Shown one piece after another: positions 14,010-31,911 of a stretch of DNA of 64,000 nucleotides. The first letter of the stretch is position 1. The number at the start of each line of letters is the position of its first letter. The DNA comes from an uncultured Rhodocyclaceae bacterium (lineage in GTDB: Bacteria > Pseudomonadota > Gammaproteobacteria > Burkholderiales > Rhodocyclaceae). The stretch covers positions 114,637 to 178,636 of the forward strand of contig CAJQTY010000003.1 of NCBI GenBank assembly GCA_907163075.1. The letters run 5' to 3'. A model generated the notes under the pieces. That model ran no database searches, was not told the DNA's origin, and saw only the letters and a program-made list of their open reading frames with translations. A program made the translations under genes and the position numbers.

Positions 14010-14792
14010 TTACGGCAGGGCGTTGGCAATGCGGATGTAGTCTTCGACGGACAGGGTTTCCGCCCGCGCCGTCGGGGCGATTCCAAGCTGTTCGAAGCCG
14101 GCGTCGTCGAGAATTCCCTTGAGATTGTTGCGCAGCATCTTGCGCCTTTGCGCGAAGGCCGCCAATACCAGCGCCGCAAAGCGGGCTTCATCCCTGACCG
14201 CCAGTTCTTCTGGCGGACGTGGAATCAGGCGGACGACGGCCGAGTCCACTTTTGGCGGCGGCGCGAAGCACTCAGGCGGCACGTCGAGCAGCCAGTCCAT
14301 GACAAAGCGATACTGGAGCATCACCGACAGGCGGCCAAAATCAGACGTTCCCGGTTCGGCAACCAGGCGCTCGACCACCTCTTTCTGCAGCATGAAATGC
14401 ATGTCTGCCACCTGTCCGGCAAAGCCGGCCAGATGGAAAAGCAGGGGCGTCGAGATGTTGTAGGGCAGGTTGCCGACGATGTGCAGGCCGCCGCCGGAGG
14501 CCGCCGGCGCCAGCGCAGCGAAATCGAAGGCCAGCGCGTCGCCCTCGTGGATGCTGAGTTGGTCGGGCGAATAGAGCTTCTTCAATCGGGCAACGATGTC
14601 GCGGTCGATCTCGACCACATGCAGATGATCCAGCCGCGCGAGCAAAGGCCCGGTTAACGCGCCAAGCCCGGGACCGATCTCGACCACGCAATCATCGCGT
14701 TTCGGCGCAACGGCGTTGACGATATCGGCGATCACCTGCCGATCGATCAGGAAATTCTGCCCAAATCTTTTACGTGCGACATGCGCGCTCAT
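14010..14792 (-). CDS. rsmA: 16S rRNA (adenine1518/1519-N6) dimethyltransferase
   Basis: 260-aa KsgA/RsmA. It dimethylates two adjacent adenines in helix 45 of 16S rRNA during 30S maturation. The start at [15 protein letters not shown] is chosen because RKRFGQNFL is the normal N terminus; an upstream in-frame start would add 27 unrelated residues inside pdxA. SAM-binding motif I is [13 protein letters not shown], and the catalytic motif is NLPYNIS. Four bases separate it from pdxA, forming the common lptD-surA-pdxA-rsmA operon. Confidence 0.95.
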
Positions 14793-14796
14793 CGAA

Positions 14797-15795
14797 TCAC
14801 GGACTCGGCCGGGCGCGCTGCGCCATCTCGATGGCCTGTTCGACGGCAACAAAGAGGCTGCCGGGATCGGCACGGCCGCTACCGGCCAGTTCGAGAGCCG
14901 TGCCGTGGTCGACCGAGGTGCGGATGATGGGCAGGCCGAGCGTGACGTTGATGCCGTGGCCGAAGCTGGCGTACTTGAGCGCCGTCAGCCCCTGGTCGTG
15001 GTACATGGCCAGCACGCAATCGCCCCTGGCCAGCATCGGCGGCGTAAACATCGTATCAGCCGGCAACGGACCGATCAGCGTCATGCCCTCGCCGCGCAGG
15101 CTTTCGAGCACCGGCGCAATGACATCGATCTCCTCGCGCCCGAGATAGCCGCCTTCGCCGGCGTGCGGGTTGAGCCCGGCGACCAGGATGCGCGGTGCGG
15201 CGATGCCGTATTTGCGGCCCATGTCGGCATGCAGAATGCGCAGAGTCTGTTCAAGTGCCTCCGCCGTCACCGCGGCCGCAACGTCCTTGAGGGGCAGATG
15301 GGTGGTCACCAGCGCCACGCGCAGGCCGCCGCCGGCAAGCATCATCACCACGCGCGGGGTACCCGTCTTCTCGGCCAGATACTCGGTATGGCCGGTGAAG
15401 GCGACGCCGGCGTCGTTGATCACGCCCTTGTGCACCGGCGCCGTGACCATTGCGGCAAATTCGCCGGTGCGGCATCCATGCAGCGCCCGGTCAAGTAACT
15501 GCAGCACGTAGGGCGAGTTGGCCGGATCGAGTTTGCCGGCTTGCGACGCGAGCGCCAGTGGAACATGCAGAACGTCGAGTAAGCCGGCCGATGACGGCAC
15601 GCCCAGCGTCCAGTCGCGCAGCACAACGGGGAAATCGAGCGCCTGAGCCCGTTCGGCGATCAGGTGGCGGTCGGCAAGAATGACGATATGCGCGGCTGGC
15701 GATTTCGCCGCGAATTCGACCAGGCGCAGACAGATCTCCGGGCCGATTCCGGCTGGCTCACCCGAGGTAACGGCAATGACAGGAAAATCGGGCAT
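14797..15795 (-). CDS. pdxA: 4-hydroxythreonine-4-phosphate dehydrogenase
   Basis: 332 aa. It oxidises 4-phosphohydroxy-threonine in the DXP-dependent pyridoxal phosphate pathway. The N-terminal signature is [15 protein letters not shown], followed by the metal-site His in TAPVHKG and later [16 protein letters not shown] and [11 protein letters not shown]. Length and motifs are normal. Three bases lie between surA's stop and its ATG, so it belongs to the lptD-surA-pdxA-rsmA transcript. Confidence 0.96.
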
Positions 15796-15798
15796 GGT

Positions 15799-17109
15799 TC
15801 AGCGCTCCTCAAGCCGCAGTTCGACGTAGGCGCTGTCACGCACCTGCCGCAGCCAGTCCTGGTAGGCCTCATCCATCTTGCGCTCGCGCAGTACCTGACG
15901 CGCCGCCATGCGCTGACGATCCGCCGACACGTCCTGCACGCGCCGTTCAAGCACCTGGATCAGGTGAAAACCAAAGGGCGATTGCACCGGCTGACTGACC
16001 TGGTTTGGCTGCAGCTGGTTCATCGCCCGTTCGAAATCCGGCACGGTATCACCCGGGTAGACCCAGCCGAGGTCGCCGCCCTTGGACGCCGAACCGTCCT
16101 GCGAAAACAGCTTGGCCAGTTCCGCGAAGCTGGCACCGTGCGTGATCCGCTCATACAGATCGTTCAGTTTGTGCCTGGCGTCGGTCTCGGAAACGACTTC
16201 GTTAACCTTGATCAGGATATGCCGGACGTGCGTTTGCTGAACCGCCGGCACCGCCGCTCCGCCGCGTTTCGACACCAGCTTGACGATATGGAAGCCATTG
16301 GGGCTGCGCAGGATTGGCGCCACCTCGCCGGGATTTAGCCTGGTCACGGCTTCTGAAAAAATGGCGGGCAATCGGTCCAGCGGACGCATGCCCAGGTTCC
16401 CGCCCTTCAACCCGTCGGGCGCATCCGAATAGGCCGCGGCAAGCTGACCAAAGTCTTCGCCCTTCCGCAAGCGCTCGAAGACCTCTTCGGTCTTCGCCTT
16501 GAGCCTCTGTATCTGCTCCGGGCTGGCCGATTCAGGGGCGCGCAAAAGGATATGCGCGACTTCGTATTCTTCAGCCGATACGCCCTTCGCCGATTCTCCG
16601 CTCAGGTAGTTGTCGATCTCGCCTTCGGAAATGGCGATCTTGCTCTCAACCTCGCGCTCACGAATGCGCGCCAGAGTGATCTCCTCTCGGATCTCCTCGC
16701 GAAATTTCGCAAACGGAATGCCATCCTTCTGCAACGCCTCGCGGAACTGGGCGAGTGACATCTTGTTGTTGGCGGCGATACGCTGCAGAGCCTGTTCGAG
16801 CTGTGCATCGTCGACTTTCAAGCCGGTGTCGCGTGCGTGTTGCAGCTGTATCTTGTCCATCACCAGGCGCTCAAGCATCTGCTTCTCCAGCACATCGCGC
16901 GGAGGCAGCGGGGTACCCTGCTTTTTCAACTGGGTCAGCGCAAGATCGAGGCGGGTGCGCAGTTCGTAGTGGGTGATCACCTCGTCATTGACGACGGCAA
17001 CGATACGATCGGCCGGCTGGGGTTCGCTGGCCGGTCGCCGCTGCACTTGCGCCGAGACCGCGCCGACGAGACACAGTAACAGAACAAACATGCGAAGCAT
17101 TTGAGTCAT
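15799..17109 (-). CDS. surA: Periplasmic peptidyl-prolyl isomerase/chaperone SurA
   Basis: 436 aa from the ATG at 17109. This start is preferred over a GTG nine bases upstream because AGAGGG is then 8 bases away and a signal peptide (MTQMLRMFVLLLCLVGAVSA) follows. Domain order: N-terminal chaperone domain (IVAVVNDEVITHYEL), then two parvulin-type PPIase domains (about 175-275 and 285-385; HILLRAPE and HILIKVNE), then a C-terminal helix. It escorts outer-membrane proteins, classically including LptD, whose gene lies 12 bases upstream. Confidence 0.95.
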   Translation of the reverse strand: MTQMLRMFVLLLCLVGAVSAQVQRRPASEPQPADRIVAVVNDEVITHYELRTRLDLALTQLKKQGTPLPPRDVLEKQMLERLVMDKIQLQHARDTGLKVDDAQLEQALQRIAANNKMSLAQFREALQKDGIPFAKFREEIREEITLARIREREVESKIAISEGEIDNYLSGESAKGVSAEEYEVAHILLRAPESASPEQIQRLKAKTEEVFERLRKGEDFGQLAAAYSDAPDGLKGGNLGMRPLDRLPAIFSEAVTRLNPGEVAPILRSPNGFHIVKLVSKRGGAAVPAVQQTHVRHILIKVNEVVSETDARHKLNDLYERITHGASFAELAKLFSQDGSASKGGDLGWVYPGDTVPDFERAMNQLQPNQVSQPVQSPFGFHLIQVLERRVQDVSADRQRMAARQVLRERKMDEAYQDWLRQVRDSAYVELRLEER

Positions 17110-17121
17110 GTGTAGCACCCT

Positions 17122-20100
17122 CTATTCACCTAGAACAGCATCCATCGCCGGCTGATTGATCAGACTGTAGCCCTGAATATTGCGTTTGAGAAGATTTAGC
17201 GGATTCGAGCCGATACGCGAGAAATCGCTCAGTTCGAGCTGAATGAAGAATGACGTGGTCGCCGTGTCCTGGGTCAGCGCCAGCCGCTGCACGACGCCCC
17301 GCACAATCCAGCAGCCGCCGTTGTATTCCAGGCCAGCGATGGCCTGAATCACCCGCCCGCCCTGCGTGCTGCTCCCCGTATTGGTGCCATCGTCCTGGAA
17401 CGAGTAGTTGTACCGGCCGACCGCATACAAACGCCCCGTAATCGGCCACTGCCCGGAAAAATCCACCTGATCGATCGGGGCGCTTGCATCGCGGTTGTAG
17501 CGGTACGCCGCGTTCAGCACCTTGCCGGGCTCCGGCTGGTAGCGGGTGCCCAGTGAAAAGCGCTTGACCTGTGCATCGGCGACGTTGTACTGCAGCGCGG
17601 AGTCGGCGTAGACCTTCGGCAGGATCTGCCCGCTGAAGGCGGCCAGAACATCGGACCGGTCCCATCTGCCGTCGCTGGACGTGGTGTTGGTGCCGGGTGT
17701 CAGCGCCACCTTGTTTTTGCTGAAGTAGAAGCGCTCGCCGACCATCGCGCGCATGATTTCATTGCCGGTCGCCGGCTCCAGCAGACGGGTCGTTACCGCC
17801 GCCGTCAACTGGTTGGCGTTGCTGATGCGATCCCAGCCCGAGAACTGATTCTCGGAGAAAATCTGCGCGAAGTTGAAGTCGGCGAGACCCGTGTCGAAAA
17901 GCGGAATTTGGTCCTGATTCTTGTACGGGACGTTCAGGTAATAGAGACGCGGCTCGAGGGTCTGCGTGTAATCCCGCCCGAACCAGTTGCTCGTGCGCTC
18001 GAAGGTCATTCCTGAATCGACACTGACAATCGGCAGTGTCGTGCTGAGCGAACCCGGCGTTCCTGCCGCCTGCCCAGAAAGCGCATAGTTGCGGAAATTG
18101 ACGCCGAGTTTCGGCGTGATGTACCAGCCCGGCGTCACGTAAGGCAGCGCCACCTGGGGATAAAGCACCGTTCGCTGCCCGTCGGGATAGATCGTCCCGT
18201 TCTGTACGCGCTCATTGATGGTGAAATTGGTGTATTGGCCGAGGAAACTGCTGTCGGTCATGAACAGATCGGGCTTGCGGGCATTGACCGTGATCTGCGG
18301 CAACAACTTGTACGGAATACTTACCGGATTAGCCGAATCCGGCTGCAGCGTCTGGTACTGCTGGACGTTGGCCGTCGCCGTCCACCAGCCGCCAGCGCCG
18401 TAGCTGAGCGAGCCTTGCTGCAACAACTGCGTCTGCGACGTTTGCGCAATACCGCTCGACAGATCGGTAAAGTAATTGTCGTCCGACACCTTGTTGTAAT
18501 TGACCTGGCCGCTAAAGCCATTAGCCGTCGTCTGCTGATGCCGCAAGGAGAGGCCCCAGCGGTCCTCGTCACGCACTTTGTCGCCGGGCAGGTACTCGGC
18601 ACGCGCCTGTCCGCGGAACAAACCACCGTACGCGGTATTGAGATAGCGGAACTCGGTACCGAACTGCGTACCGCGTTTGGTCATGATGCGCGGCGTGATC
18701 GTAGCGTCCATGTTCGGAGCGATATTCCAGTAGTACGGCAATGCAAGTTCGATACCGCTGTCGCTGGTCGTACCAAAACTTGGCGCCAGCAAACCCGACT
18801 TGCGCTCATTGTTGAGCGAGAACGACAACCACGGCGAGTAAAGAATCGGCACCCCGAGAAAATACACCGCCCCGTCGGTCCCGTCAGCCACTTCGCGGTC
18901 GTAGTCGAGCTTGAGGCTGCTGGCCTTGGCGTACCAGTCGTCGTTGCCGGGCTCGCAGGTCGTGTAGGTGCTGTTCGTCATGCGCACCTGGTTCTCGCCC
19001 TCGAAATCGATGCGATCCGCCTCGCCTCGCCCTTCCGTCATCGTCGACCGCATCTTTGTGGAATCTTCGGCTCTTGTCTGACCCGGCTTGATGTCGAGCA
19101 CACGCGGCGTCGCAAAACCGGAATTCAGCCAGGAGTCGCCGCCGGCCTGCCCTTCCGGGCTCGCCGCGAAGGCCTTGTCGGCAGCCGCCTTGCTGCCAGG
19201 CAGCGGCTGCCGCTTGATGGTGTACGAAGGCTGCTCGAAATATCCCACCTGATCTTCTATTTTCAGGCGCATCTTCGGACCGGTAATCACATCTTCGCCC
19301 TGTTCCAGGCGCACATTCCCTTCGGCCTGGATCTCATCGTCGATCGGCCAGTAGGTCAGGCGATCGGCATTTACGGTCGTCCCGATCTTGCGCAGTTCGG
19401 CGTCCTCCTCGGCGATAAACTCCCGATCGATCTCCCCGGCCATGCGCTGCGCGTTGAGAAAGACGGGGCGCGGAACCGTGCTGTCCTTGGCCAGCGGCTC
19501 CATCGTTCTCGACATCCGCAAGGCCAGCGCCGGCGACGCATCGGGCACCGCCTCCTCGTCGCGTGAGCCGGCCGCCGAAACGAGCGGCGGGACGTTTGCC
19601 GACGGCGCCACCACGCCTGCCTCCGTGCCGCCTGCTGCCGTGGGGCCGTAGGGCACGCGCCGAACCGCTAGCGGCATCGCCGCGCCAACGCCGGTAGTGG
19701 CGACCTGGACCGGCTCCGGCGGTGCCGGACGCGCCGGCGTGCCGATGGCCTCGCCGGTCTTGCCCAGTTCCCACTTGGCCCAGATAAAAATGACGTTGCC
19801 GGCATCCTGGCCACCGGGAGGAATGTAAGTTCCTTCCAGACTGAAGTTCTTGTAGGACACAGAGGCCAACGGCACGATGATCGGAAAGGGAACATAGCCA
19901 AGGATGTCCGAGCGCGACATCAGCCCGGCAAGGAAACCCAAGCCCACACGCACGTCCTCCGCCGGACGCCAGATGGCTTTCCAGCCGTAACCTGCCGTGT
20001 AAGAAGGCTTGAAGTGCGAATCCTGGAAAGCCATCGCATAAACACCCTCCCAGTTTCCCTTCTCGTTGTACAAGCCGCGGCCGACGCCGAAACCGAGAGG

Positions 20101-21078
20101 CTGTTCCTGATAGGAGGCGATCTGTTCTGCGGAATACGTGCTGCGCGAATGGTAGGTTTCGAGCGGGAGATAAAACTCGAGCGCGCCGTTGTCGTAGGCG
20201 TTGGCCACCGGATCCCAGATTCGGCGGAACCACGATTTCCCGGCGCCGGCCGTTGCTGTCGTCGTTGCCGCTGTCTTCGCCTTGGCCGGCGGCGCAGGCG
20301 TTTCTCCAGCAACCGGTGCCGAGCTCGGCACGCCCCCCGCGACCCGGCTTCCCGTCGCGGCCGCCGCCGGAACCGGAGCCGCAGTCGGTGGCGCGGCAAC
20401 GGAAGGCGCGGCGAGCAGCGCCGGATCGACACGCAATGGCGCCACCGTGGCAACCGGCGTCGCGGCCACGGCGGGCGAAGCCGCGACAGCGGGCGCCGGA
20501 GCCGACCTCGCTTGCGTCTGGACGGCCGGTACTGCCGCCTGCGGCACCGGTTCCGGCTGCTTCACCGTCTGCGTTTCGGGGCCAACGGGAGCGGCCTGGC
20601 GCGCCTCTTCACGCGGGTCGCGCGCCGGTGCGGCGACGACCGGAGAAACGGCGGCGGCTGAAGCCGGCGACGGCTCTGGCGCAGCAACGGGTGGCGGCTC
20701 CTGCGGCGCCACGGTGCGCGCCGGAATTTCCTGCGCCGCGGCCTTGGCGGGCTTGCTGTCCCTGGCAACCCCGGCCGGCCTGCTTTTCTCCGTTGCGACC
20801 GCCGCGGGCTGCGCCTCGACCGTAACCGGGCGCGCCTCGACCACGTCGGGTTCGACCGGCTTGACTTCGACGCTTGCCTTTTCGGCAGGAAGCGGGGCCG
20901 GGGCCGGAGCCGGAGCTTGCGCCGGCGTTATCGGCGGCAGGCCGAGCAATGCCGGGTCGACGCGCAGCGGCGCAGGCGCCTGCGCTTGCGCCTCGCCGGC
21001 ATGGCCGCCGACGAGAACGCTCGCAAAACCGTAACAGAAGAGCAGCGCGATTGGTTTGCGCCGTGCACAAGAAGTCAT
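17122..21078 (-). CDS. lptD: PagP-LptD fusion: lipid A palmitoyltransferase-like domain joined to LPS transport barrel
   Basis: 1318 aa, about 500 residues longer than typical LptD. Residues 1-33 are a signal peptide. Residues 34-280 form an Ala/Pro-rich linker with APLRVDPALL repeated at 36-45 and 213-222. Residues 282-440 match PagP: WDP start, YLPLETYHSRSTY, EKGNWEGVYAMAFQDS and GLGFLAGLMSR. The PagP catalytic residues are kept as His310, Asp353 and Ser354, with the same 43/44-residue spacing as E. coli His33/Asp76/Ser77. A second linker runs 441-535. An LptA/OstA-like domain follows (about 540-625), then the LptD beta barrel (about 690-1318; YYWNIAPNMDATITPRIM). Cys708 and the Cys in GGCWIVRG could form the single disulfide. 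LptD inserts LPS into the outer leaflet; the fused domain would palmitoylate lipid A there. One open frame with no sign of readthrough. Confidence 0.9.
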   Translation of the reverse strand: MTSCARRKPIALLFCYGFASVLVGGHAGEAQAQAPAPLRVDPALLGLPPITPAQAPAPAPAPLPAEKASVEVKPVEPDVVEARPVTVEAQPAAVATEKSRPAGVARDSKPAKAAAQEIPARTVAPQEPPPVAAPEPSPASAAAVSPVVAAPARDPREEARQAAPVGPETQTVKQPEPVPQAAVPAVQTQARSAPAPAVAASPAVAATPVATVAPLRVDPALLAAPSVAAPPTAAPVPAAAATGSRVAGGVPSSAPVAGETPAPPAKAKTAATTTATAGAGKSWFRRIWDPVANAYDNGALEFYLPLETYHSRSTYSAEQIASYQEQPLGFGVGRGLYNEKGNWEGVYAMAFQDSHFKPSYTAGYGWKAIWRPAEDVRVGLGFLAGLMSRSDILGYVPFPIIVPLASVSYKNFSLEGTYIPPGGQDAGNVIFIWAKWELGKTGEAIGTPARPAPPEPVQVATTGVGAAMPLAVRRVPYGPTAAGGTEAGVVAPSANVPPLVSAAGSRDEEAVPDASPALALRMSRTMEPLAKDSTVPRPVFLNAQRMAGEIDREFIAEEDAELRKIGTTVNADRLTYWPIDDEIQAEGNVRLEQGEDVITGPKMRLKIEDQVGYFEQPSYTIKRQPLPGSKAAADKAFAASPEGQAGGDSWLNSGFATPRVLDIKPGQTRAEDSTKMRSTMTEGRGEADRIDFEGENQVRMTNSTYTTCEPGNDDWYAKASSLKLDYDREVADGTDGAVYFLGVPILYSPWLSFSLNNERKSGLLAPSFGTTSDSGIELALPYYWNIAPNMDATITPRIMTKRGTQFGTEFRYLNTAYGGLFRGQARAEYLPGDKVRDEDRWGLSLRHQQTTANGFSGQVNYNKVSDDNYFTDLSSGIAQTSQTQLLQQGSLSYGAGGWWTATANVQQYQTLQPDSANPVSIPYKLLPQITVNARKPDLFMTDSSFLGQYTNFTINERVQNGTIYPDGQRTVLYPQVALPYVTPGWYITPKLGVNFRNYALSGQAAGTPGSLSTTLPIVSVDSGMTFERTSNWFGRDYTQTLEPRLYYLNVPYKNQDQIPLFDTGLADFNFAQIFSENQFSGWDRISNANQLTAAVTTRLLEPATGNEIMRAMVGERFYFSKNKVALTPGTNTTSSDGRWDRSDVLAAFSGQILPKVYADSALQYNVADAQVKRFSLGTRYQPEPGKVLNAAYRYNRDASAPIDQVDFSGQWPITGRLYAVGRYNYSFQDDGTNTGSSTQGGRVIQAIAGLEYNGGCWIVRGVVQRLALTQDTATTSFFIQLELSDFSRIGSNPLNLLKRNIQGYSLINQPAMDAVLGE

Positions 21079-28703: not shown

Positions 28704-28936
28704 AACAAGAGAACGATATTGCGGCCTGCATCTACGGCGCGCTGAATACCTACTTCGATGACCTCGACGGCGAAATGCCGGCCCCCATCTACGATATGGT
28801 CCTGCGGAGCGTCGAGCGCCCGATGCTCGAAGTGGTGCTCGAGCGGGCCAGGGGAAACCAGACGCTGGCCTCCCAGATGCTGGGCATCAACCGCAATACC
28901 TTGCGCAAGAAACTCGTTGATTACAAGCTCGTTTGA
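28700..28936 (+). CDS. fis: DNA-binding protein Fis
   Basis: 78-aa nucleoid protein. The C-terminal helix-turn-helix is clear ([20 protein letters not shown], residues 50-69). It is shorter than the 98-aa enterobacterial Fis, as is usual in betaproteobacteria. ATGA overlap with dusB; purH begins 30 bases downstream. It bends DNA and modulates rRNA, recombination and growth-phase genes. Confidence 0.93.
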
Positions 28937-28965
28937 CCCACTTTCGGACCCGAGAGACGCCCATC

Positions 28966-30540
28966 ATGAAAATCCGCCAAGCCCTGATCAGCCTTTCCGA
29001 TAAACGCGGTGCGCTCGAATTCGCCCAGGGCCTCGCCGCCCACGGAGTGAAGCTGCTGTCCACCGGCGGCACCGCCAAACTGCTGCACGACGCCGGACTC
29101 GCCGTGACCGAAATCGGTGATTACACCGGCTTCCCGGAAATGCTCGACGGCCGCGTCAAAACCTTGCATCCGAAAGTGCATGGCGGCATTCTCGCCCGCC
29201 GCGACCTGGCCGAACATCTGGCGACTATCGAAGCGCACGGCATCCCGATGATCGACCTGGTGTGCGTCAATCTCTACCCCTTCCGCGAAACTGTTGCCAG
29301 GTCCGACGTCACGCTCGAAGAGGCGATCGAGAACATCGACATCGGCGGCCCGGCAATGGTCCGCTCGGCGGCAAAGAACTACGCCGCCGTGGCGGTCGTC
29401 ACCGATCCCGAAGACTACGCTTCGCTGCTCTCCGAGATGCAGGCCAACGCCGGCGCACTGACGCTGGCCACGCGCTTCGGCCTGGCCAAAAAGGCGTTCA
29501 CGCACACCGCGCGCTATGACGCAGCGATCGCCAACTGGCTGACGGCGCTCGACGAAACGAACAACCCGCAGGCGCTGACGCCTTTCCCGCAGAAGCTGCA
29601 ACTCGCCTTCGACCGCGTCGAAACGCTGCGTTACGGCGAAAATCCGCACCAGAGCGCTGCCTTCTACCGCGACCCGATCGCGACGCCGGGCACCATCGCC
29701 GCCTACCGGCAACTGCAGGGCAAGGAACTCTCGTACAACAACATCGCCGACGCCGACGCCGCCTGGGAATGCGTCAAGACCTTCAGCGCCCCGGCCTGCG
29801 TCATCATCAAGCACGCCAACCCGTGCGGCGTGGCCGTCGCCGCTGGCCTGCTGCCGGCCTATGAAAAAGCCTTCCAGACCGATTCAACCTCGGCTTTCGG
29901 CGGCATCATCGCCTTCAACGGCACGGTCGATACCGACATCGTCGCCGCCATGAACGAGCGCAAGCACTTCGTCGAAGTCCTGATCGCCCCGGCCTACACT
30001 GCGGCCGCCAGGGACATGCTGGCCAGCAAGCAGAACCTGCGCGTGCTCGAACTGCCGCTGTCCAATAACTACCACGCCTTCGAGATGAAGCGCGTCGGCG
30101 GCGGCCTGCTGGTGCAGACGCCGGACACGTTCAACGTCCAGTCCTCCGATCTCAGGGTGGTGACCCGGCTGGCGCCGACCGCGGCACAGATCGAAGACCT
30201 GCTCTTCGCCTACCGCGTGGCCAAGTTCGTCAAATCCAACGCCATCGTATTCTGTGGCGGCGGCATGACGCTCGGCGTCGGCGCCGGCCAGATGAGCCGC
30301 GTCGACTCGACGAAGATCGCCGTGATCAAGGCGCACAATGCCGGCCTGGCGCTGGCCGGCGCCTGCGTCGCCTCGGACGCCTTCTTCCCCTTCCGCGACG
30401 GCCTCGACGTTCTCGCCGAAGCCGGCGCCAAGTCGGTCATCCAGCCCGGCGGCTCGATGCGCGACGAAGAAGTCATCGCTGCGGCGGACGAACACGGAAT
30501 CGCCATGGTATTTACCGGCGCCCGTCATTTCAGACATTAA
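28966..30540 (+). CDS. purH: Bifunctional AICAR formyltransferase/IMP cyclohydrolase
   Basis: 524 aa. The start at [15 protein letters not shown] is chosen because this is the normal PurH beginning; an upstream in-frame codon would add 11 odd residues and overlap fis. The N-terminal IMP cyclohydrolase domain (1-200) contains [10 protein letters not shown] and [13 protein letters not shown]. The C-terminal formyltransferase domain holds [11 protein letters not shown]. It catalyses the last two steps of IMP synthesis. Confidence 0.97.
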
Positions 30541-30569
30541 GCCGCTGGGCGAAGAGCGAGGAGAGGGGT

Positions 30570-30622
30570 TGAGGAGTAAAATGATGCCATTACATTTCCA
30601 ACTACCGACTCTTCACTCCTCA
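30570..30622. repeat. Short inverted repeat between purH and purD
   Basis: TGAGGAGT (30570-30577) and ACTCCTCA (30615-30622) form an 8-bp stem around a 37-base AT-richer loop in the 90-bp gap. There is no T-run, so terminator function is doubtful. Confidence 0.4.
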
Positions 30623-30630
30623 CTTACACT

Positions 30631-31911
30631 ATGAAATTACTCGTCATTGGTTCCGGCGGCCGCGAACACGCGCTGGCCTGGCATCTGGCCAGAACATCCG
30701 GCATCCAGAAAGTCTACGTGGCGCCCGGCAACGCGGGCACAGCGCGCGAACCCGAACTGGAAAACGTCAACGTCACCGACCCGGCGGAACTTGCCGAGTT
30801 CGCCGAGCAAAAGGGCGTTCACCTGACGGTCGTCGGCCCGGAAGCCCCTCTCGCGGCGGGCGTCGTCAACCTCTTTCGTGCGCGCGGGCTGAAGATTTTC
30901 GGACCGACCCGCGAAGCCGCGCAACTCGAAAGCTCGAAGGATTTTGCCAAGCGCTTCATGACCCGGCACAAGATCCCGACAGCCGCCTTCGAAACATTCT
31001 CCGATCGTGCCGCCGCGCACGCCTACGTCGACACGCAGGGCGCACCCATCGTCATCAAGGCCGACGGCCTGGCCGCCGGCAAGGGCGTCGTCGTCGCCAT
31101 GACGCTGGACGACGCACATGGCGCCATCGACGACATGCTTTCCGACGGCAAGCCGGGCGTGGTGAACACGGCGTCCGGTGCTCGCGTCGTCATCGAGGAA
31201 TTCCTCGACGGCGAGGAGGCCAGCTTCATCGTCATGGTCGACGGCAAGAACGTGCTGCCGCTCGCCTCCAGCCAGGATCACAAGCGCATCGGCGACGGCG
31301 ACAACGGCCCCAACACCGGCGGCATGGGCGCCTACTCGCCGGCCCCGGTGGTCACCCCGGCGATCCACGCCAAGGCCATGCGCGAGATCATCCTGCCGAC
31401 GGTGCGCGGCATGGCCGCCGACGGTATCCCCTACACCGGCTTTCTTTATGCCGGCCTGATGATCGGCAAGGACGGTTCGGTGAAGACGGTGGAATTCAAC
31501 TGCCGCATGGGCGACCCGGAAACGCAGCCGATCCTGATGCGCCTCAAATCCGACCTGCTCATGCTGGTCGAACACGCGCTTGCCGGCAAGCTCGATCAGA
31601 TCGAGGCCGAATGGGACCGGCGCGTGGCCCTCGGCGTTGTGCTGGCGGCGGCCAACTACCCCGGCACCCCGCGCCAGGGCGATGTGATCAGCGGCCTGCC
31701 GGAAGAGAGCGAAGACGTCCACGTATTCCATGCCGGGACCGAGGAACGAAACGGCAAGATCGTCACCGCGGGCGGCCGCGTGCTGTGCGTCACGGCGCTC
31801 GGCGACAACGTCAAGCAGGCGCAGAAACGCGCCTACGACGCCCTCGTCGGCATCCATTTCGACGGCATGCAATACCGCCGCGATATCGGGCACCGGGCGA
31901 TTTCGCGCTGA
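30631..31911 (+). CDS. purD: Phosphoribosylamine-glycine ligase
   Basis: 426-aa ATP-grasp enzyme, joining glycine and phosphoribosylamine in purine synthesis. It starts with LLVIGSGGREHALAW and includes VVGPEAPLAAGVV, SSKDFAKRFMTRHKIPTA and PNTGGMGAYSPAP, followed by EFNCRMGDPETQ, all diagnostic. Full length. It is downstream of purH, with a 90-bp hairpin-containing gap. Confidence 0.97.
   Translation: MKLLVIGSGGREHALAWHLARTSGIQKVYVAPGNAGTAREPELENVNVTDPAELAEFAEQKGVHLTVVGPEAPLAAGVVNLFRARGLKIFGPTREAAQLESSKDFAKRFMTRHKIPTAAFETFSDRAAAHAYVDTQGAPIVIKADGLAAGKGVVVAMTLDDAHGAIDDMLSDGKPGVVNTASGARVVIEEFLDGEEASFIVMVDGKNVLPLASSQDHKRIGDGDNGPNTGGMGAYSPAPVVTPAIHAKAMREIILPTVRGMAADGIPYTGFLYAGLMIGKDGSVKTVEFNCRMGDPETQPILMRLKSDLLMLVEHALAGKLDQIEAEWDRRVALGVVLAAANYPGTPRQGDVISGLPEESEDVHVFHAGTEERNGKIVTAGGRVLCVTALGDNVKQAQKRAYDALVGIHFDGMQYRRDIGHRAISR

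Follow-up and report, generated by a model that had tools for sequence, protein, structure and literature searches.

The window, that is, the whole stretch of 64,000 nucleotides analysed here, comes from an uncultured Rhodocyclaceae bacterium (assembly GCA_907163075.1, contig CAJQTY010000003.1, positions 114,637 to 178,636). At 17122-21078 its minus strand carries a gene encoding LptD with a complete PagP domain in its N-terminal part. LptD is essential and is regarded as the transporter inserting lipopolysaccharide (LPS) in the outer membrane. PagP is normally a separate enzyme, which adds an extra fatty acid to LPS and is latent until the asymmetry of the outer membrane fails. The frame encodes 1318 amino acids without an internal stop, as stated in the original prediction, which did not name the strand; the same interval read on the plus strand contains 8 stops. 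The frame is also continuous between the PagP and LptD parts, and the claim of a single gene survives. From the N to the C terminus, the protein (about 140 kDa by estimate) consists of a signal peptide, an Ala/Pro-rich linker, a complete PagP, a second linker, an LptA-like domain and the LptD barrel, located as follows.

17122..21078, minus strand: the lptD-pagP fusion gene, 1318 codons plus stop (frame and profile searches)
20980..21078, minus strand: signal peptide, residues 1-33 (by eye: positive start, hydrophobic core, AxA-type end)
20239..20979, minus strand: Ala/Pro-rich linker, residues 34-280, weakly conserved (alignment, substitution rates)
20932..20967, minus strand: first LRVDPALLGLPP motif, residues 38-49 (alignment, pattern search)
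20407..20436, minus strand: second copy of the motif, LRVDPALLAA, residues 215-224 (alignment, pattern search)
19759..20238, minus strand: PagP domain, residues 281-440, with the Pfam match at 291-435 (Pfam, NCBIfam, PDB sequences, E. coli alignment)
20149..20151, minus strand: catalytic His310, E. coli H33 (alignment)
20017..20022, minus strand: catalytic Asp353-Ser354, E. coli D76-S77 (alignment)
19468..19758, minus strand: second linker, residues 441-537 (alignment, substitution rates)
18895..19374, minus strand: LptA-like domain (PF03968), residues 569-728, with Cys708, E. coli C173 (Pfam, alignment)
17431..18567, minus strand: LptD barrel (PF04453), residues 838-1216 (Pfam)
17311-17313, minus strand: Cys1256, E. 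coli C725, outside the Pfam barrel match (alignment)

The PagP profile PF07017 matches residues 291-435 over positions 2-144 of its 144, with 171.2 bits against a gathering score of 24 (E = 1.1e-50), and the predicted domain withstands comparison with this threshold. The NCBIfam PagP equivalog NF008271 is also passed (184.1 against a cut-off of 155), and in a search of PDB sequences the domain matches the E. coli PagP entries 1mm4 (E = 2.5e-34) and 3gp6 (E = 3.6e-34). In the alignment with PagP of E. coli K-12, residues H33, D76 and S77, which we take to be catalytic, correspond to H310, D353 and S354 with identical spacing, exactly as predicted. Equivalents of these residues are retained in 14 of 14 fused domains and in 31 of 31 stand-alone rows. 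G88, R114 and the prolines P28, P50, P127 and P144 of E. coli are also present in the window's domain; the arginine and the four prolines are retained in all 14 fused domains. G88 presumably is the acyl-chain ruler position, with glycine a mark of the choice of palmitate and not of the family. The ruler position in the window is Gly365, and glycine is retained here in 9 of the 14 fused and 21 of the 31 stand-alone rows.

The last PagP strand keeps its pattern though it is internal (GNVIFIWAKWEL versus GNVYFAWMRFQF in E. coli), and a hydrophobic residue is aligned with the point where the E. coli chain terminates. The retained pattern would suit separate folding of the PagP part by the barrel assembly machinery (BAM). 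Compared with stand-alone PagP (PF07017; E. coli, PDB entries 1mm4, 1thq and 3gp6), the whole domain, the catalytic residues and their spacing, the four prolines and the pattern of the last strand are common. However, PagP of the window is internal to another protein, has neither its own signal peptide nor a free C terminus, and is necessarily co-produced with LptD.

Selection was estimated by simple Nei-Gojobori counts in nine of the 66 possible pairs among 12 fused genes. The ratio of nonsynonymous to synonymous substitution rates (dN/dS), to be read with the caveat that synonymous sites are close to saturation in many pairs, is 0.03-0.28 in PagP and 0.07-0.22 in the LptD barrel. The LptA-like part gives 0.04-0.39, and the two linkers give 0.13-0.73. 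In eight pairs of the nine, PagP has a lower value than either linker. The exception is the pair G109-G144, where 0.277 for PagP slightly exceeds 0.255 for the first linker; in the closest pair, G105/G587, the ratio is 0.026 for PagP versus 0.22-0.32 for the linkers. Purifying selection on PagP is similar in strength to that on the LptD barrel, and the linkers drift.

Degeneration of the PagP part is ruled out by the catalytic residues retained in 14 of 14 domains and by the dN/dS values. One further possibility is that this part is a structural or sensing module without enzymatic function, for instance one that anchors the long LptD or aids its assembly. The ruler residue and the positions of E. 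coli D61 and H67 vary, as would be natural for such a module. However, the retention of the catalytic histidine, aspartate and serine throughout is unexpected in a scaffold, and we consider this explanation very unlikely.

The LptD part is recognised by PF04453 at residues 838-1216 (profile positions 1-383 of 384, 342.7 bits against 22.4), by the LptA-like profile PF03968 (LptD_N) at residues 569-728 (30.4 bits against a gathering score of 20.4), and by LptD_2 (50.4 bits against 22.5). Among the eight fused proteins scanned, all match the PagP profile (E at most 0.001) with scores above its cut-off, and four reach E 0.001 with the LptA-like one. The NCBIfam LptD equivalogs NF002997 (368.3 against 683) and NF003358 (350.9 against 944) stay below their cut-offs; this is not counted against LptD membership, since these models were taken to be clade-specific. 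E. coli C173 and C725, presumably among the cysteines of the long-range disulfides, correspond to C708 and C1256, which are invariant in the eight proteins aligned; E. coli C31 and C724 lack a counterpart in the alignment. Compared with LptD of E. coli K-12 (b0054), which shares the LptA-like domain, the barrel and the C173/C725 pair, the window's protein is longer (1318 versus 784 residues), the N-terminal linker and PagP being extra, and 211 of 662 aligned positions are identical. The genome of the window (98% complete assembly) has one LptE match (65 bits against 23), and searches of it found neither a second LptD nor any PagP beyond the fused one. Since one LptD, one PagP and one LptE were found, the fused protein very probably does the job of LptD.

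The fusion was found in 14 species-level genomes of betaproteobacteria: Propionivibrio and its allies, three Rhodocyclus species, and a groundwater metagenome-assembled genome (MAG). Given the E-values and these 14 genomes, a chance origin of the PagP match is excluded. The fusion frame is confirmed as a real feature, and the original idea of an LptD with a complete N-terminal PagP is upheld by profile, residue-level, comparative and selection evidence. An assembly or frame artefact joining two genes has nothing found in its favour, and the same arrangement in 14 genomes, including strains of the three Rhodocyclus species and Propionivibrio dicarboxylicus DSM 5885, rules it out as far as sequence can; its probability is practically negligible. 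Searches of open-licence PubMed Central papers, which leave out most of the subscription literature, brought up no report of such a fusion; this agrees with the initial remark that it was unknown among characterised LptD proteins.

In the family sample, 36 of 199 genomes have a PagP match (35 above the cut-off). PagP is in one frame with LptD in eight of the 36, the window's genome included, and in 28 it is not. In the genus of the window, LptD was matched in 26 of 28 genomes and PagP in 10, always in or beside an LptD-sized frame. Eight of these ten frames are 1153 to 1341 amino acids long (that of G587 begins at a contig end). In G607, PagP is in a 928-residue frame cut by the contig end, and in G586 the gene is split over two contigs, the second of which carries most of PagP in a 1000-residue frame with LptD.

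The scan of named genomes yielded 24 loci, with PagP and LptD in one frame in 11 (L052-L059, L061-L063). L060 has most of PagP with LptD, L051 ends at a contig end inside the gene, and in the 11 remaining loci the PagP frame does not include LptD. The fused named strains are Rhodocyclus tenuis 2761, R. gracilis DSM 110, R. purpureus DSM 168 and P. dicarboxylicus DSM 5885; for R. tenuis 2761 there is older chemical work on lipid A. Other fused records are Candidatus Propionivibrio aalborgensis (L051, L060), three Propionivibrio MAGs, a MAG labelled Accumulibacter, and further MAGs, among them ones from soil and groundwater. These loci apparently are not additional to the 14 genomes, representing 12 of the same 14.

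In the wider samples, PagP was matched in 58 of 399 genomes of the order and 15 of 369 of the class; among the matches listed there, no PagP frame exceeds 539 residues except that of the window. The family and order samples also hold PagP frames of 371-593 residues. The 593-residue frame of G031 is a pagP between purH and purD, as in other stand-alone copies. PagP matches in frames of 389-539 residues were observed in one other family of the order (G217, G344, G306, G439, G524, G550, G263), possibly representing other PagP extensions.

The motif LRVDPALLGLPP or a near form of it occurs in one to three copies in the N-terminal linkers of most Rhodocyclaceae LptD proteins examined, with or without PagP (rows L075-L094 and L131-L147, surveyed by eye and with a simple pattern). 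It resembles CMLGVP, with which mature LptD of E. coli begins, and may be a binding peptide. The pattern VDPALLG found both copies in the fusion gene and two further places. In unfused LptD proteins of the same genus with an Ala/Pro linker (for example G588, G589 and G141), the N-terminal region with LRVDPALLG motifs is similar, but there is no PagP between the linkers. By eye, G588 retains the motif upstream of the position occupied by PagP in its relatives and a segment resembling the one downstream of it (LKVDPALLGLPP ... RRPYG ... RDEEEVPD). Since these flanking segments are kept without PagP, the domain behaves as a module between shared linkers. We infer that G588 has probably lost PagP and did not simply fail to gain it.

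The LptD tree was built from 48 chosen rows, the unfused ones being a choice (18 from other genera, mostly long frames, from the family sample). The 14 fused proteins fall within one set of 33 rows (99 in the Shimodaira-Hasegawa-like approximate likelihood ratio test, SH-aLRT) that also holds unfused rows. A single clade of fused LptD is rejected (47 rows, approximately unbiased test, p-AU 4.4e-6); a single clade of fused PagP domains is not (45 rows, p-AU 0.45). The PagP tree omits L072, L074 and L101, which are duplicates, as well as the six family genomes (of 36) for which no locus was fetched. Its best version has 2 changes, with 1 change in 24% of bootstrap trees, and the fused domains lie outside a supported group of 22 stand-alone domains (99/99). 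On the LptD tree there are six changes of fusion state, or five if L113 (G594, truncated by a contig end) is left out. The five changes can be read as a single fusion with four losses; repeated fusion, or transfer of the fused gene, may be an alternative history.

A candidate source of the domain is the usual site of stand-alone pagP in relatives, which is empty in the window.

28933..30540, plus strand: purH, bordering on the left the site where stand-alone pagP usually lies in relatives (gene comparison)
30541..30630, no strand: empty 90-bp site flanked by purH and purD, occupied by stand-alone pagP in many relatives
30631..31911, plus strand: purD, right neighbour of this site (gene comparison)

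In G113, G127 and G031, stand-alone pagP has purH on one side and purD on the other, and about 7 to 9 kb separate it from the start of lptD. The intervening genes are in the order of the window, except that two window genes are unmatched there in G113 and G127. Both purH and purD adjoin stand-alone pagP in 16 of 24 loci; one more has purD at a contig end, and seven have neither. These loci (L038-L050, L064-L074) comprise 13 chosen from the 28 unfused PagP-bearing genomes of the family sample and 11 named ones, with L072 repeating L038. Besides the window, purH and purD are adjacent in 9 of 11 fused genomes tested out of 13, with gaps of 14-109 bp (derived by hand from coordinates at minus-strand loci); in fused G025 and G144, purH was not found within the 1.5 kb examined. 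They are also adjacent in six of eight tested genomes without PagP in LptD. No PagP match was found at the purH-purD site in the 19 loci tested. As pagP is missing from its apparent old place, it apparently moved into lptD, perhaps once and with later losses. Stand-alone pagP and lptD are oriented away from each other, and the fused parts are on one strand. Thus no simple deletion could join them, and an insertion or inversion would be needed. G031 (L085) has an unfused LptD close to that of fused G025 and, at purH-purD, a stand-alone pagP that belongs to the other set of PagP domains.

On the other side of the fusion gene, the window shares the order lptD-surA-pdxA with E. coli, and rsmA comes next.

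15799..17118, minus strand: surA-like gene adjoining lptD (best NCBIfam match SurA, 326, below the cut-off of 394)
14797..15795, minus strand: pdxA (profile naming)
14010..14873, minus strand: rsmA (ksgA) (profile naming)

The PagP barrel has both ends in the periplasm and therefore can stand between two periplasmic linkers; indeed, in the alignment both ends of the window's PagP run into linkers. We consider it probable that the gene encodes a two-barrel protein that keeps an active acyltransferase for lipid A tethered at the LPS exit. The single exported polypeptide would form two outer-membrane barrels, the eight-strand PagP and the large LptD, joined by periplasmic linkers and the LptA-like domain, and both barrels would be folded by SurA and BAM. 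The PagP part would be a catalytically intact acyltransferase taking an acyl chain from outer-leaflet phospholipid. Produced in a 1:1 ratio with the transporter, it would be placed by the LptD tether near the gate where new LPS enters the outer leaflet, and would be expected to acylate LPS at or near the point of arrival. Within this reading, the sequence itself shows the single frame, the complete PagP with its conserved active site, the purifying selection, the recurrence in 14 genomes and the empty purH-purD site, and the folding of both barrels, the activity, the survival of the single chain and the coupling of the two steps are inferred. Palmitate is a plausible donor chain, since the fatty acids of Rhodocyclus are reportedly dominated by C16 (PMC8954225). 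That paper nowhere uses the term LptD, and the passages considered here also deal with LPS sugars but not with the acyl chains of lipid A.

Several observations weigh against the tethered-acyltransferase reading. Firstly, E. coli D61, H67 and Y147 are not retained in the window's PagP domain, and in 5 of the 14 fused domains the ruler residue is A, T, S or Q. The added chain there may thus not be palmitate, and the varied ruler residue would predict differing chain lengths.

Secondly, 18 of the 28 genomes of the window's genus have no PagP, and several sister lineages have LptD without it, so that the coupling is dispensable. One explanation is that the relocation was neutral, PagP being folded and active but kept because pagP was lost elsewhere, with its nearness to the LPS exit irrelevant. 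The PagP-free LptD of the sister lineages and the 28 family genomes with PagP outside the LptD frame are in line with it. The argument against it is a weak one: the fusion occurs in three or more genera, and PagP is under selection. Neutral relocation seems rather doubtful to us; it differs from the tethered-acyltransferase reading only in the last step, so the two overlap and their chances do not sum to one.

Finally, 48 to 140 residues separate the end of PagP and the beginning of conserved LptD in 12 genes. The second linker being long and variable, the tether is loose and could be cut. If the linkers were cleaved after export, PagP and LptD would be two ordinary barrels, and the fusion would set only a shared level of expression. 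The linkers are indeed long, Ala/Pro-rich and variable in sequence and length. However, no conserved cleavage motif was noticed by eye, and RVPYGP...RDEEEVPD, where the second linker is best conserved, is nearly retained in unfused G588 and so is not peculiar to fused proteins. Cleavage appears unlikely to us.

A more specific version of the tethered-acyltransferase reading is that each new LPS molecule would be remodelled on leaving LptD, by an acyltransferase fixed at the exit, constitutively and not only upon failure of asymmetry, the gene having arisen by movement of pagP from the purH-purD site, some 7-9 kb away, into the lptD linker. We put this forward tentatively, as possible but not quite probable.

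A natural fusion under selection suggests that LptD and PagP act close together. It is a ready-made system for asking where and when PagP meets LPS. It also provides a natural test of how BAM deals with a chain that contains two barrels, one of which is internal. The named fused strains, R. tenuis 2761, R. gracilis DSM 110, R. purpureus DSM 168 and P. dicarboxylicus DSM 5885, make the question testable.

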